A DNA stretch of 64,000 bases from contig CANLWG010000003.1 in NCBI GenBank assembly GCA_947494715.1, forward strand, positions 186,001 through 250,000, written 5' to 3'. The notes under the pieces are model-generated. The model saw only the letters and a program-made list of their open reading frames with translations, was not told the origin of the DNA and ran no database searches. Every line of letters begins with the position of its first letter. Within the stretch, counting starts at the first letter, position 1. Shown piece by piece: positions 6,668-10,369 of the stretch. Both the position numbers and the translations under genes were made by a program. The stretch is from an uncultured Flavobacteriaceae bacterium (GTDB lineage Bacteria; Bacteroidota; Bacteroidia; Flavobacteriales; Flavobacteriaceae).

Positions 6668-6738
6668 TCCAATTGCAAAATACGGAATATGAAACGGTTC
6701 TTAACAAATAATTATGGGAATATGTTTGTTAAAAAATG

Positions 6739-6746
6739 TAAATTTG
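6739..6746 (+). promoter_or_regulatory. Probable -7 box of superoxide dismutase
   Basis: TAAATTTG matches the TAnnTTTG element and lies 35 nt before the chosen ATG at 6782. I see no good TTG at -33, so the promoter is called on the -7 box alone. Confidence 0.5.
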
Positions 6747-6781
6747 AATTGCAATATTTATTAACTAAAAACACAATAAAA

Positions 6782-7390
6782 ATGGCTTTTGAACTACCTA
6801 AATTACCTTATGCCTACGACGCATTGGAACCACATATTGATGCCAGGACCATGGAAATTCATCATACAAAACATCATAATGGCTATACTTCAAAATTGAA
6901 TGGAGCGATAGAAGGAAGTAATCTTGCGAACAAGAGTATAGAAGATATTCTGAAAGATTTGGACATGTCCAATTCTGCTGTTCGGAATAATGGCGGCGGA
7001 TACTATAACCATTCCTTGTTTTGGGAGATTATGTCTCCCAATGGAGGAGGAGCTCCATCCGGGGAATTGGCCAATGCCATAAACAGTGCCTTTGGTTCTT
7101 TTGATGGCTTTAAGGATGAATTTAGCGGTGCTGCGGGATCTAGGTTCGGATCGGGTTGGGCTTGGCTTTGTGTGCATCCGGGAGGAGAGGTGAAAATTTG
7201 CTCTACCCCCAATCAAGATAATCCGTTAATGCCGGACACAGGCTGTGGAGGCTATCCTATTTTGGGATTGGATGTTTGGGAACATGCCTATTACTTAAAC
7301 TATCAAAATAGAAGACCTGATTACATCAATGCATTTTTTAATGTAATCAATTGGGAAAAGGTCAGTGAGCTCTATGCATCAAATAGTTAG
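6782..7390 (+). CDS. sodA: Superoxide dismutase (Fe/Mn family)
   Basis: The 202-residue cytoplasmic enzyme disproportionates superoxide to hydrogen peroxide and oxygen. Metal ligands are visible: H27 in 'MEIHHTKHH', the histidine of 'YYNHSLFW', and Asp and His of '[18 protein letters not shown]'. The reading frame stays open upstream to 6689, but the family begins at [18 protein letters not shown], and the promoter-like box at 6739 lies between the two, so the ATG at 6782 is chosen. Metal preference (Fe, Mn or cambialistic) cannot be read safely from the sequence. A terminator follows at 7443. Confidence 0.95.
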
Positions 7391-7467: not shown

Positions 7468-7485
7468 ATGGGTTTTTTGAAATAG

Positions 7486-7555
7486 AAAAGGGTGGAGAAG
7501 CCTCCACCCTTTTCGTCCCAAATCTTACCATAAACTTAACCTACTTATGCTATGG
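7486..7555 (-). ncRNA. Putative small RNA, array copy 1
   Basis: Predicted transcript of about 70 nt. The core occupies 7516-7555 (one change: TTTATGG where the others read TTCATGG). The hairpin arms are 7486-7497 and 7502-7513 (AAAAGGGTGGAG with CTCCACCCTTTT, plus-strand loop AAGC). The likely -7 box is TAATTTAG (7561-7568), 5 nt before the core, one mismatch from TAnnTTTG. I do not recognise a named RNA family. Confidence 0.65.
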
Positions 7556-7560
7556 CATTA

Positions 7561-7568
7561 CTAAATTA
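7561..7568 (-). promoter_or_regulatory. -7-like box of small-RNA copy 1
   Basis: TAATTTAG on the minus strand, at the same 5-nt distance from the conserved core as the boxes of the other copies; no clear -33 element. Confidence 0.4.
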
Positions 7569-7690
7569 CTGGTATTGTGGGAAATAAAAAAGAAATTTTA
7601 AGAAATTTTAAGGGATTTGAACCAAAAGAACATGGATTAATACGGATAAAAGTGGGTTAATCCTTGTTAATTACTTGACTCTCAGCAATA

Positions 7691-7759
7691 AAAATGGCGG
7701 AGCTCAGCTCCGCCATTTTCCCCAAATCTTACCATGAACTTAACCTACTTATGCTATGG
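7691..7759 (-). ncRNA. Putative small RNA, array copy 2
   Basis: Predicted transcript of about 69 nt. The core is 7720-7759. The hairpin arms are 7691-7703 and 7707-7719, with GGCGGAGC paired to GCTCCGCC and AAAAT/ATTTT flanks. Compared with copies 3 and 4, one base pair of the stem is swapped (G:C for A:T), which keeps the pairing intact. Confidence 0.7.
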
Positions 7760-7764
7760 TCCTC

Positions 7765-7796
7765 CAAACATAGTGTATCAATGCTATTCCAAAAAA
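7765..7796 (-). promoter_or_regulatory. Promoter of small-RNA copy 2
   Basis: On the minus strand TTTTTTG (7790-7796) precedes TATGTTTG (7765-7772) with a 17-nt spacer. TATGTTTG is a full match to TAnnTTTG. The conserved core starts 5 nt downstream, where transcription would be expected to begin. Confidence 0.65.
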
Positions 7797-7898
7797 GGTT
7801 TTGGATGAACGCCCTTATCTATGGTTGAAATACCATCCAAAGGGCAATGTCTTATAAAAGAATAGGAAAAGGAATACAAAAGCAGATCTGGCACAAAT

Positions 7899-7967
7899 AA
7901 AAAGGCGGAACTCAGTTCCGCCTTTTTCCCCAAATCTTACCATGAACTTAACCTACTTATGCTATGG
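7899..7967 (-). ncRNA. Putative small RNA, array copy 3
   Basis: Predicted transcript of about 69 nt with core 7928-7967 and hairpin arms 7899-7911 and 7915-7927 (GGCGGAAC with GTTCCGCC, A5/T5 flanks, which give a U-tract on the minus-strand RNA). It is nearly identical to copy 4 through core, hairpin and spacer. Confidence 0.7.
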
Positions 7968-7972
7968 TCCTC

Positions 7973-8004
7973 CAAACATAGTGTATCGATGTTATTCCAA
8001 AAAA
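7973..8004 (-). promoter_or_regulatory. Promoter of small-RNA copy 3
   Basis: TTTTTTG (7998-8004), 17-nt spacer, TATGTTTG (7973-7980) on the minus strand, then 5 nt to the core. Confidence 0.65.
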
Positions 8005-8106
8005 GGTTTTGGATGAACGCCCTTATCTATGGTTGAAATGCCATCCAAAGGGCATTGTCTTATAAAGGGACAGGAAAAGGAATACAAAAGCAGATCTGGC
8101 ACAAAT

Positions 8107-8175
8107 AAAAAGGCGGAACTCAGTTCCGCCTTTTTCCCCAAATCTTACCATGAACTTAACCTACTTATGCTATGG
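8107..8175 (-). ncRNA. Putative small RNA, array copy 4
   Basis: Predicted transcript of about 69 nt with core 8136-8175 and hairpin arms 8107-8119 and 8123-8135. The unit matches copy 3; the spacer upstream of its promoter diverges after about 60 bp. Confidence 0.7.
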
Positions 8176-8180
8176 TCCTC

Positions 8181-8188
8181 CAAACATA
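8181..8188 (-). promoter_or_regulatory. -7 box of small-RNA copy 4
   Basis: TATGTTTG on the minus strand, 5 nt before the core. The -33 position reads TTTTTTA instead of TTTTTTG, so this promoter may be weaker than those of copies 2 and 3. Confidence 0.55.
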
Positions 8189-8293
8189 GTGTAACGATGT
8201 TATTCTAAAAAAGGTTTTGGATGAATGTCCAATAAGTAGGTCAAAATACAGGATTGTTGAACGATATAGTATTATAAAGGATTTCGTAAAAAT

Positions 8294-8364
8294 AAAAAAG
8301 GTGGAGTAGCCTCCACCTTTTTTGCCCCAAATCTTACCATGAACTTAACCTACTTATGCTATGG
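8294..8364 (-). ncRNA. Putative small RNA, array copy 5
   Basis: Predicted transcript of about 71 nt with core 8325-8364 and hairpin arms 8294-8306 and 8311-8323 (GGTGGAG with CTCCACC, A6/T6 flanks). The stem is of the copy-1 type, with T:A where copies 2-4 have C:G. The upstream sequence is unrelated to that of copies 2-4. Confidence 0.68.
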
Positions 8365-8369
8365 CAGAC

Positions 8370-8377
8370 CTAAAATA
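8370..8377 (-). promoter_or_regulatory. -7-like box of small-RNA copy 5
   Basis: TATTTTAG on the minus strand, again 5 nt before the core and one mismatch from TAnnTTTG; no clear -33 element. Confidence 0.4.
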
Positions 8378-8426
8378 GGTTGGCTGTACTCCTTATAGGC
8401 CATAAACCCGACAAAAGACAACAATG

Positions 8427-8462
8427 ATCGATGAAATGCACAAATTTGTGCATTTCATCGAT
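8427..8462. repeat. Perfect 36-bp palindrome downstream of purF
   Basis: Two uninterrupted 18-bp arms (8427-8444 and 8445-8462, beginning ATCGATGAAATGCAC) meet without a loop, 8 nt beyond the purF-like stop codon. It may act as the purF terminator although no U-tract follows, or be a protein-binding site. It is AT-rich and unlike the GC-rich hairpins of the neighbouring array. Confidence 0.85.
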
Positions 8463-8470
8463 AAAGACAA

Positions 8471-10369
8471 TTAGTAGGCTCTTTGGTTTTTACCTTCAAA
8501 AAAGTTGATAAATGCCTTATTTACCACCCTATTCCCCCCTGGGGTTGGATAATTTCCGGTGAAGTACCAATCGCCCAAATTTTTTGGACATGCTTCATGT
8601 AGACTTTCTATGGTCTGATATATGATTTGTACTTCGGACCTGATGTCTTTTGGACTTAGCAATTCCCCAATTTTCTGTGATATTTCGATAGCGGTAAAAG
8701 GAGCATAAAACTCTTTTACATAGTTGACAACGTCTTTATCCCTCGTCTGTAATTGGTCAACACATTTCTTGTATATGTCTTCCACAATGGAATAGCTTCC
8801 CTTTTCATTATGTAATGCCAATGCCGCCCTAAACGCGATGAAATCTTCCAATTTTGCCATATCTATTCCATAACAATCCGGGTATCTGATTTGAGGCGCC
8901 GAGGAAACTACAATTATTTTTTTAGGAGATAAGCGATCCAAAATTCTAAGAATGCTCTTTTTTAGCGTTGTACCCCTTACAATACTATCGTCTATAATAA
9001 CCAGGTTATCTCCTTTTTCAACCGAACCATACGTAATATCATAAACATGGGTCACAAGATCGTCTCGGCTACTGTCCTGGGTGATGAAGGTTCTTAACTT
9101 TGCGTCCTTGATCGCAACTTTTTCGATTCTTGGCCGTACTTCCAAAATTTCATGTAGCTGCTCGCTCGTTATTTTGCTACCTATGGATAAGATTTGTTCT
9201 TCCTTTTTTTTGTTAAGGTAATTTTGGGCCTCTTTTACCATTCCTAGAAATGAGGTCTCGGCAGTATTAGGTATATAGGAGAACACCGTTTTTTTAATAT
9301 TCCCATCTATGGCGGTCAAGATTTGAGGGAAAATCCTTTTCCCCAGTTCTTTACGTTCTTGATATATTTCCTTATCACTTCCTCTTGAAAAATAGATGCG
9401 TTCAAAGGAACAGGCTTTTCTTTCTGTTGGTTCCAGTATTTCTTTTATGGCCGAAACCCCGTTCTTTTTTATAATGATGGCATGCCCCGGTTCAAGTTCC
9501 CTTACATCTTCGTAACCTACATTGAAGACGGTCTGTATAGCCGGCCTTTCCGATGCGACCACAACAATCTCATCATCCTTATAATAATAGGTAGGGCGAA
9601 TGCCTGCCGGATCTCGCAATACAAATGCATCCCCATGGCCTAATAACCCGGCCATGGCATAACCTCCATCCCAATTTTTGGCCGCACGTCTTAAAATCTT
9701 GGAAACTCGTAATCGTTCAGCAATCAACGGAGAGGCCTCCTGTTTCGTATACCCTTCTTTTTTAATTTGTTTATAAAGCTTGGCAACGGCATCATCCAAA
9801 AAGTGACCTATTTTTTCCATAACGGTTATCGTATCCGCCATTTCCTTGGGATGCTGTCCCAATTGCACCAAATTATCAAATAGCTCATGCACATTGGTCA
9901 TATTGAAATTTCCTGCCACTATAAGATTGCGGTGCATCCAGTTATTCTGTCTTAAAAAAGGATGCACGCTTTCTATGCTGTTCTTGCCGAAAGTCCCATA
10001 ACGTACATGACCCAATAAAAGTTCCCCTACATATGGGATATTCTTTTTTTGCCAGGCCACATTATCCACTTCTTCGGGATGTGCTTCGAAAGCCGTATTT
10101 ATTCGATCCGTGATTTGGGCAAAGATATCTTGTATCGGTTGCTGTTGTATGGACCGTGCTCTACTCATATACCTTTCCCCGGCTGCCATATCCAATTTAA
10201 TACTGGCAAAACCTGCCCCATCTTGCCCTCGGTTATGTTGCTTCTCCATCATTAGGTACATTTTGTTTACCCCATAAAAGGCCGTACCGTATTTTTTATG
10301 ATAGTATTCCAATGGCTTCAACAGGCGTATTACGGAAATCCCGCACTCATGTTTGATAGCGTCGCTCAT
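8471..10369 (-). CDS. purF: Amidophosphoribosyltransferase, long Bacteroidota form
   Basis: This enzyme family makes 5-phosphoribosylamine from PRPP and glutamine, the first committed step of purine synthesis. The N-terminal glutamine amidotransferase (Ntn) domain has its candidate nucleophile at C9 in 'KHECGISVI', with 'QHNRGQDGAGFAS' and 'LLGHVRYGTFG' following. The PRPP-binding loop 'VIIDDSIVRGTT' lies near 456-467. At 632 residues it is well above the 470-510 of the standard enzyme; the extra length falls mainly in the middle and C-terminal part. It sits with a PfkB kinase and purN on the same strand. A second, shorter purF may exist elsewhere in the genome, so the physiological role is less sure than the family. 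Confidence 0.87.
   Translation of the reverse strand: MSDAIKHECGISVIRLLKPLEYYHKKYGTAFYGVNKMYLMMEKQHNRGQDGAGFASIKLDMAAGERYMSRARSIQQQPIQDIFAQITDRINTAFEAHPEEVDNVAWQKKNIPYVGELLLGHVRYGTFGKNSIESVHPFLRQNNWMHRNLIVAGNFNMTNVHELFDNLVQLGQHPKEMADTITVMEKIGHFLDDAVAKLYKQIKKEGYTKQEASPLIAERLRVSKILRRAAKNWDGGYAMAGLLGHGDAFVLRDPAGIRPTYYYKDDEIVVVASERPAIQTVFNVGYEDVRELEPGHAIIIKKNGVSAIKEILEPTERKACSFERIYFSRGSDKEIYQERKELGKRIFPQILTAIDGNIKKTVFSYIPNTAETSFLGMVKEAQNYLNKKKEEQILSIGSKITSEQLHEILEVRPRIEKVAIKDAKLRTFITQDSSRDDLVTHVYDITYGSVEKGDNLVIIDDSIVRGTTLKKSILRILDRLSPKKIIVVSSAPQIRYPDCYGIDMAKLEDFIAFRAALALHNEKGSYSIVEDIYKKCVDQLQTRDKDVVNYVKEFYAPFTAIEISQKIGELLSPKDIRSEVQIIYQTIESLHEACPKNLGDWYFTGNYPTPGGNRVVNKAFINFFEGKNQRAY

Follow-up and report, generated by a model that had tools for sequence, protein, structure and literature searches.

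Tandem copies of a predicted small RNA with a near-invariant core at a largely fixed locus in the Flavobacteriaceae

The Qrr small RNAs of Vibrio depend on Hfq and on sigma-54/LuxO. In Bacteroides, the FopS/GibS small RNAs (RF04319) are described, in the text available, as base-pairing RNAs that occur in several copies, and the same account names sibling small RNAs that include OmrA/B and LhrC (PMC11697453). Four known and 85 new RNAs of Flavobacterium psychrophilum have been mapped and named Rfp1-89, of which Rfp18 was studied (PMC9723704), and candidate RNAs without Rfam matches have been reported from F. columnare (PMC5395568). The literature available suggests that little is known of post-transcriptional regulation in the Flavobacteriaceae.

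Here a family of short elements is described that is an old and predicted multicopy small RNA family with a two-class promoter design, undescribed as far as literature searches reach. The titles and opening abstract lines of publications on multicopy or flavobacterial small RNAs held no description of it, four strings from its core did not occur in the literature text searched, and the words purF and superoxide dismutase are absent from the main text of PMC9723704. The transcript lists in the supplements of PMC9723704 and PMC5395568 may contain an unrecognised, unnamed member. The occurrence of the RNA in about five of six genera, its near-invariant core, its largely fixed locus and the absence of an Rfam match make it a handle on flavobacterial regulation.

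Architecture of the array

The window is a stretch of 64,000 nt from the genome of an uncultured Flavobacteriaceae bacterium (the source genome). Direct reading of its sequence revealed five minus-strand copies between a purF-like gene, the conserved same-strand neighbour (8471..10369, minus strand; 632 aa; scoring 131.9 bits with TIGR01134, short of its cut-off of 350), and a superoxide dismutase gene, sodA, the conserved convergent neighbour (6689..7390, plus strand; Fe/Mn type, Sod_Fe_N and Sod_Fe_C). The true start of sodA is probably at residue 32. As the initial annotation had proposed, all five copies have an 8-nt TAnnTT(T/A)G box, then exactly 5 nt, a core and a hairpin. The copies start on the minus strand (first C of CCAT, CCATAGCATAAGTAGG) at 8364, 8175, 7967, 7759 and 7555. 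Copy 1, proximal to purF, spans 8288..8364 (core CCAT...GGGGC plus terminator; 88.8 bits with the covariance model described below). Copies 2 (8100..8175, 95.2 bits), 3 (7892..7967, 95.2 bits) and 4 (7684..7759, 93.8 bits) follow, and copy 5, proximal to sodA and of the TTTATGG / GGGACG type, spans 7479..7555 (86 bits); all five copies are also backed by a fold test.

The core is about 40 nt long, and CCATAGC through GATTTGGG is the same in all five copies except for one C/T difference, with the bases after GGG variable. Each copy is closed by a hairpin of 13-14 bp with a U-rich flank. The predicted RNAs are 70-71 nt in length in all five copies, within the 69-71 nt first claimed, and have z scores of -3.4 to -4.3, only 0-1 of 200 dinucleotide shuffles folding as well. 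Copies 2-4 each occupy one unit of a 208-bp tandem repeat (100, 94 and 67% in register) and share their flanks; the flanks of copies 1 and 5 differ from these, in agreement with the earlier observation. That annotation had recognised no named family, and Rfam release 15 likewise gave no match at the gathering score in the window, its sub-threshold matches (FopS among them, considered below) being weak. Each copy is best explained as an independent gene for a regulatory RNA with a predicted length of about 70 nt.

The first 28 nt are predicted to form a weak hairpin with the loop GUAGG, followed by a linker, UA(A)GAUUUGGGG, that is single stranded. There are 43 distinct natural forms of the core, of which 40 were aligned, three with a repeated CCA prefix being left out. 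All 40 fold at -2 kcal/mol or better, with a mean of -4.0 kcal/mol compared with -2.0 when the 5' strand was shuffled; on average, 16% of the 5'-strand shuffles were as stable as the natural form. The hairpin pairs form in 88% of the cells counted, with 26 of 500 shuffles reaching the same covariation, and the pair of columns 13-23 is unpaired in 19 of the 40 variants. The 3' strand, the loop and the linker are the least variable parts of the core. A stem between CCAT and ATGG had been suggested and is weakly supported; the covariation of the hairpin is only modestly above that of shuffled sequences, and the hairpin with loop GUAGG is likely. The linker is itself a TAnnTTTG box in one clade (TAGATTTG); this is probably a coincidence, as the spacing is broken in another clade.

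A reading frame can be followed from the ATG of the core (ATGGTAAGATTTGGGG), as would be expected of a short coding gene. However, one clade is one A short at this point (TAGATTTGGGG) and thus out of frame, and the reading frame extends into the terminator; the probability of a coding function is considered negligible.

Distribution and genomic setting

A covariance model was built from 48 copies of 18 genomes and used for the search of flavobacterial genomes that had been proposed with the initial annotation. With one genome taken per genus, 125 of the 149 Flavobacteriaceae genomes contained the RNA at E <= 0.01, as did 110 of the 125 genomes of good quality. The match was strong in 120 of the 125 matching genomes and weak in five (E 1.6e-5 to 0.008). 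When the 16 of the 149 genomes that had supplied training sequences were excluded, the RNA was present in 109 of 133. Some complete Flavobacteriaceae genomes, for example G040, G042 and G148, gave no match in this search, the filters of which can lose weak matches.

Outside the Flavobacteriaceae, the class- and order-level searches gave no convincing covariance-model score. At the level of the class, 17 of 198 genomes matched, and only four of these, all Flavobacteriaceae, were convincing; at the level of the order, 62 of 196 genomes matched at E <= 0.05, with strong matches only in Flavobacteriaceae. Distant homologues were sought among these matches and rejected, as the best of them, in G267 (4.8e-5) and G373 (2.2e-5), look like a chance stem followed by a terminator. 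An element in a genome of another family (G294; L098:1501-1565; 31.6 bits, E 0.004) consists of TTCATAAGTAGTAGTTTAAGTTAGGTAAGA with a terminator immediately after it, and is possibly a distant relative or a chance match.

A scan with the exact core pattern found the element in at least 118 stretches, from Zobellia, Maribacter, Arenibacter, Flavobacterium, Aquimarina, Winogradskyella, Salegentibacter and others, and the conservation seen in these named stretches is conditional on that pattern. Among the matches listed, 45, 33, 17, 17, 5 and 1 of the 118 stretches carry one to six copies, respectively, with a median spacing of 205 nt. Across genera the box, the core and the terminator are kept and most of the intervening DNA is not, which supports the multicopy small RNA family first suspected. 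No homologue was seen that keeps the hairpin alone, a result that had been named as one that would speak against the family; it is the core that is conserved, and the terminator stems that change in sequence. The elements are almost certainly members of a real small RNA family, as judged from these patterns of sequence conservation.

The locus is largely fixed across genera. In the 118 stretches among the matches listed, homologues of both PurF and SodA are encoded beside the RNA in 86, of PurF only in 16, of SodA only in 10 and of neither in six, so that one or both are present in 112. Three of the six stretches with neither neighbour are short or cut close to the copy. In most stretches the element keeps the same place and direction, following purF and opposed to sodA, which would also suit a cis element that serves in 3'-end processing or termination for purF, or in antisense control of the convergent sodA. 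However, each copy has a promoter box of its own and there are between one and six copies; the other three stretches (L199, L247 and L257) have neither neighbour even though the copy is not at an edge, and in G007, G008, G009 and G016 the copies lie on another contig or far apart. A function in cis is therefore considered very unlikely.

The multiplicity of the copies could also be that of a mobile or REP-like repeat that merely resembles a gene. REP-like intergenic repeats in the source genome (L046, L047 and L049, on contigs C1, C2 and C11) do end in sequence like GGTTAGTTATGGTAAGATTTGGGA, which is similar to the 3' half of the core. Against such an origin, the family occupies one conserved locus in most stretches and keeps its promoter and terminator, copy 3 as query found no match in plasmid and phage collections, and the core pattern was not found in viral contigs. 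This explanation is disfavoured and has very little probability.

Two further elements were encountered. In L050, a piece similar to GGTTAGTTATGGTAAGATTTGGGA follows a terminator. On contig C22 of the source genome (L028:1501-1585), a small RNA-like element with a box-like GATATTTG, CATAAGTAAGTTAAGTA, a second stem and a terminator lies after a DeoR-family regulator gene; it has only the loop sequence in common with the family.

Promoter boxes and upstream direct repeats

The -7 boxes of the five copies, assigned from the sequence and the family-wide box count, lie on the minus strand at 8370..8377 (TATTTTAG, copy 1), at 8181..8188, 7973..7980 and 7765..7772 (TATGTTTG, copies 2, 3 and 4) and at 7561..7568 (TAATTTAG, copy 5). 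Of the 260 copies in the 118 stretches among the matches listed, 233 have TAnnTT[TA][GA] in the 20 nt that precede them, 197 of these with a gap of 5 nt; in a control window that lies 40-60 nt upstream, the motif was present for 4 of 260. A sigma-70 promoter scan was uninformative here (3 found, 3.3 in shuffled sequence).

Most copies are also preceded by a pair of direct repeats. These are boxes of the type CATTTCATCKAAWA, located at positions -73 and -53 relative to the core. In the window, such pairs lie on the minus strand at 8405..8438 before copy 1 (CATTTCATCGATCA and TCTTTTGTCGGGTT, a LytTR-like putative operator; score 19.6), at 8215..8248 before copy 2, where the distal unit is weak (scores 2.2 and 10.1), at 8007..8040 before copy 3 (CATTTCAACCATAG and GCGTTCATCCAAAA; score 23.9) and at 7799..7832 before copy 4 (score 21.7). 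A repeat matrix was trained on the proximal box of half of the loci and tested on the other half. From 398 windows, 360 with CCA...AGTAGG were profiled, 358 had 120 nt upstream, and the 315 tested were those not of the sodA-proximal type. The best two sites were exactly 20 nt apart in 212 of these 315 held-out copies, compared with 5 in base-shuffled sequence, and 19-22 nt apart in 240 compared with 24; the copies are related, so these counts are not independent. At least one pair was found in 144 of 157 loci, compared with 23 after shuffling.

The sodA-proximal (GGGACG) type behaved differently, having a pitch of 20 in 2 of 43 copies and of 19-22 in 5 of 43. The profile and the repeat scan show that the block upstream of copy 5 (7569..7602, minus strand; ...TTTTTTATTTCCCACAATACCAG) is highly conserved across genera and lacks direct repeats. 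Because it has this conserved upstream block of its own, the sodA-proximal copy is probably controlled differently from the others.

Published LytTR sites, in the text available, consist of two 9-bp direct repeats separated by 10-13 bp (PMC11347149); AlgR sites are CCGTTCGTC or CCGTTCATC and are often not direct repeats (PMC4064291), and AgrA repeats are centred near -60 (PMC4227749). The pitch-20 pairs match the LytTR arrangement of repeats of about 9 bp, 10-13 bp apart and upstream of a promoter. As the layout agrees with the LytTR, AlgR and AgrA sites described, a LytTR-type regulator is the natural candidate, and the balance tips slightly towards such a regulator acting on the repeats.

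Exact repeat pairs were also counted genome-wide, giving 5 in the source genome (1 in the control) and 26 in six genomes (13 in the control); they were mostly not in promoter positions, and no LytTR protein was linked to them. Pairs such as TTCATCGGATTTTTTTGCCGTTTATCGG, close to those before the Flavobacterium copies, occur outside the array at L179:11163-11191 (source genome, C1:51163) and in L332 (G002). One outlying pair adjoins the start of a gene that we take to be acetyltransferase-like. A perfect 18-bp palindrome at 8427-8462, after the purF-like gene, contains TTCATCGAT and overlaps the first (distal) operator unit of copy 1; it is a probable terminator of the purF-like gene.

Partners, candidate targets and comparison with described systems

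Hfq (TIGR02383) was found in none of the 149 Flavobacteriaceae genomes, whereas five control genomes matched. The RRM_1 domain (PF00076), that of the FopS partner RbpB, was found in 4 of the 149, in one of them weakly; the source genome lacks it, and control genomes matched. It follows that the RNA functions in the absence of Hfq and, for most genera, also of any RRM protein, or else relies on another partner.

Possible sites of base pairing were sought in 989 upstream regions of the source genome. The sequences TTAACCTAC and AACCTACTT, both complements of the loop region, were each present 5 times, compared with an expectation of 0.4. They are the best of 32 9-mers of the core, an excess as large being reached by 33 and 36 of 262,144 9-mers, and antisense and gene-internal controls showed no enrichment. 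The 9-mers of AACTTAACCTACTTAT (the seed) occur in 11 of the 989 regions, paralogues that share one leader being among these matches, compared with a permuted mean of 3.1 (7 of 500 permutations as high). By a crude rule, a signal-peptide-like start is present in 8 of these 11 products, compared with 349 of 989 overall (Fisher 0.013).

Shorter seeds and other genomes gave no such excess. The 8-mers of the seed had 16 matches in the source genome compared with 12.1 in permutations (129 of 500 as high), and the 7-mers 44 compared with 47.0 (246 of 500). The seed 9-mers had no match in 343 genes of G023 and two in 315 genes of Zobellia (136 of 500 permutations as high), where the most enriched 9-mer complementary to the core comes from the linker (CCCCAAATC, 2 compared with 0.09). 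The density of TTAACCTAC before ATG showed no excess with the RNA, at 2.51 per Mb in the source genome, 0.83 in five other genomes with the RNA, 1.78 in three family genomes without a good match and 1.49 in 61 genomes of other families; this count covers 70 of 79 genomes, nine being left out (eight without a match and G410 with one), and G411, with a weak match, is counted as lacking the RNA.

The candidate targets in the source genome include a lipoprotein-like product with AACCTACTTATGC upstream and a protein of 1335 aa that has a T9SS sorting domain; the gene of the latter carries AACTTAACCTAC and lies immediately before a PorP/SprF gene. Also included are three paralogues that have VGIGTT repeats and one common leader, and a polysaccharide deacetylase. 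In Zobellia, AACTTAACCTAC lies upstream of a PorP/SprF gene and AACCTACTTATGC upstream of the gene for an unnamed signal-peptide-like product. Less telling are two seed matches that are copies of a repeat, and one that precedes what is presumably a thioredoxin-reductase-like gene, within its probable promoter box. A leader of the type TTAACCTACAAAA..CCCCGACAAAATG is found in the source genome at C1:650713, C2:61037, C2:219370 and C18:100595, three of which read as genes for secreted-looking VGIGTT-repeat proteins.

Several other target classes were considered and rejected. Among five PorP/SprF homologues sampled, the 12-mer was present in one Zobellia gene and a broken site in one source-genome gene. 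The full anti-core AACTTAACCTACTTATG, at up to 3 mismatches, had 16 non-self matches in the source genome and 59 in the reversed control. The anti-linker CCCCAAATCTTACCAT, at up to 2 mismatches, had 14 compared with 5, but at least three of these are a REP-like repeat, and the enrichment of CCATGAA/ACCATGAA was attributed to the start codon. Pairing with SusC start regions, taken from 30 of the 57 SusC matches of the source genome, all 30 being over the cut-off, was no better than for shuffled cores (mean duplex energy -14.53 compared with -14.07 +/- 0.91; 29 of 100 shuffles as good). Since the 7- and 8-base tests show no excess, the odds of base pairing, of the target class and of the whole explanation were lowered: base pairing with mRNAs has an even chance, and surface or secreted proteins as the target class are a lead, not a result, and a doubtful one.

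The mostly negative target tests would suit an RNA that serves, like CsrB/RsmZ, as a protein decoy or ligand, with the loop GUAGG and the linker GAUUUGGGG bound by an RNA-binding protein that the copy number titrates. About 30 nt, comprising the loop, the 3' strand and the linker, hardly vary between genera, which is beyond the needs of a pairing seed, the 5' strand may vary as long as pairing is kept, and the several copies resemble a dose. However, the searches for RRM_1 and Hfq gave no candidate protein in the source genome, and a 5' stretch of some 36 nt is likewise conserved in FopS, which acts by base pairing, according to the text available (PMC11697453). A decoy function is regarded as rather unlikely.

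A TAnnTTTG-type box, a near-invariant core, a terminator, a family-wide locus and direct repeats, which most copies have upstream and the sodA-proximal type seldom has, are seen in the sequence. The best explanation of the whole, with a probability of roughly 0.47, is a multicopy regulatory RNA that is switched by a LytTR-type regulator and pairs with mRNAs without Hfq. A LytTR-type regulator would bind the direct repeats and switch the array together, the last, sodA-proximal copy would be driven separately and give a basal level, and copy number would set the dose. The RNA would act in trans, its loop region AAGUAGGUUAAGUU pairing with mRNAs close to their start codons, possibly with assistance from the single-stranded linker. 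This pairing, for which neither Hfq nor, in most genera, an RRM protein would be available, would probably repress translation of some proteins that are secreted or located at the surface. With the array, the action of small RNAs in the absence of Hfq can be tested directly, and the operator that the copies share is a route to the signal.

The nearest described architecture is that of FopS/GibS, and as far as the available text goes the two families are alike in being multicopy RNAs of Bacteroidota of about 70 nt, with their own TAnnTTTG-type promoter, a conserved 5' part and one terminator (PMC11697453). Set against the FopS layout of a single-stranded 5' stretch followed by a terminator, the present RNA agrees in promoter, length, terminator and copies, but its 5' part is predicted to be weakly folded. 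It could be a flavobacterial branch of FopS/GibS that pairs with susC start regions and is antagonised by RbpB, and RF04319 does give a sub-threshold match of 21.7 bits, its best on the window. However, the gathering score is 56 bits, and RF04319 also matched none of the six Flavobacteriaceae genomes in a draw of 198. The FopS R1' seed is not significantly related to the four core forms, 0.03-0.23 of double and 0.05-0.33 of single shuffles giving as good a local alignment. The family differs from FopS in its direct-repeat operator, in showing no preference for SusC start regions and in the lack of an RRM protein from the source genome. The genes of FopS, in the text available, are dispersed (PMC11697453), whereas the copies here are mostly in tandem at one locus. 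Membership of the FopS family fails on score, seed, SusC start regions and partner, and this reading, which is mostly refuted, is highly improbable.

Like the present family, Rfp18 of F. psychrophilum is a flavobacterial small RNA that is conserved beyond its species and, as may be the case here, tied to secreted proteins; compared by description only, and in the text available, it differs in having at least three stem-loops, with pairing in the third (PMC9723704), and is probably a distinct RNA. The LytTR-type operators of AgrA, AlgR and CoxC are likewise short direct-repeat pairs upstream of a promoter, as far as the available accounts go (PMC4227749, PMC4064291, PMC11347149); the repeats described here have a pitch of 20 bp, and they have GTTCATC in common with the AlgR site of rhlI (PMC4064291). 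The repeats described here are putative operators of a candidate LytTR-type regulator.

In comparison with Qrr and other siblings, the family likewise has several near-identical copies, each with a separate promoter and terminator. A common direct-repeat operator precedes most copies, which are probably under a shared, putative regulator. It differs from Qrr in occurring in genomes without Hfq, in its LytTR-like site and in forming one tandem array. Tentatively, and with a low probability, a family-wide circuit may be envisaged in which a LytTR-type regulator would drive a tandem battery of sibling RNAs beside a separately driven basal copy. The RNAs would tune how surface and secreted proteins are displayed, including an adhesin-like protein exported by the T9SS and the PorP/SprF partner of that protein, in bacteria that lack Hfq and for the most part also RRM proteins; this would be a Qrr-like design made from unrelated parts.
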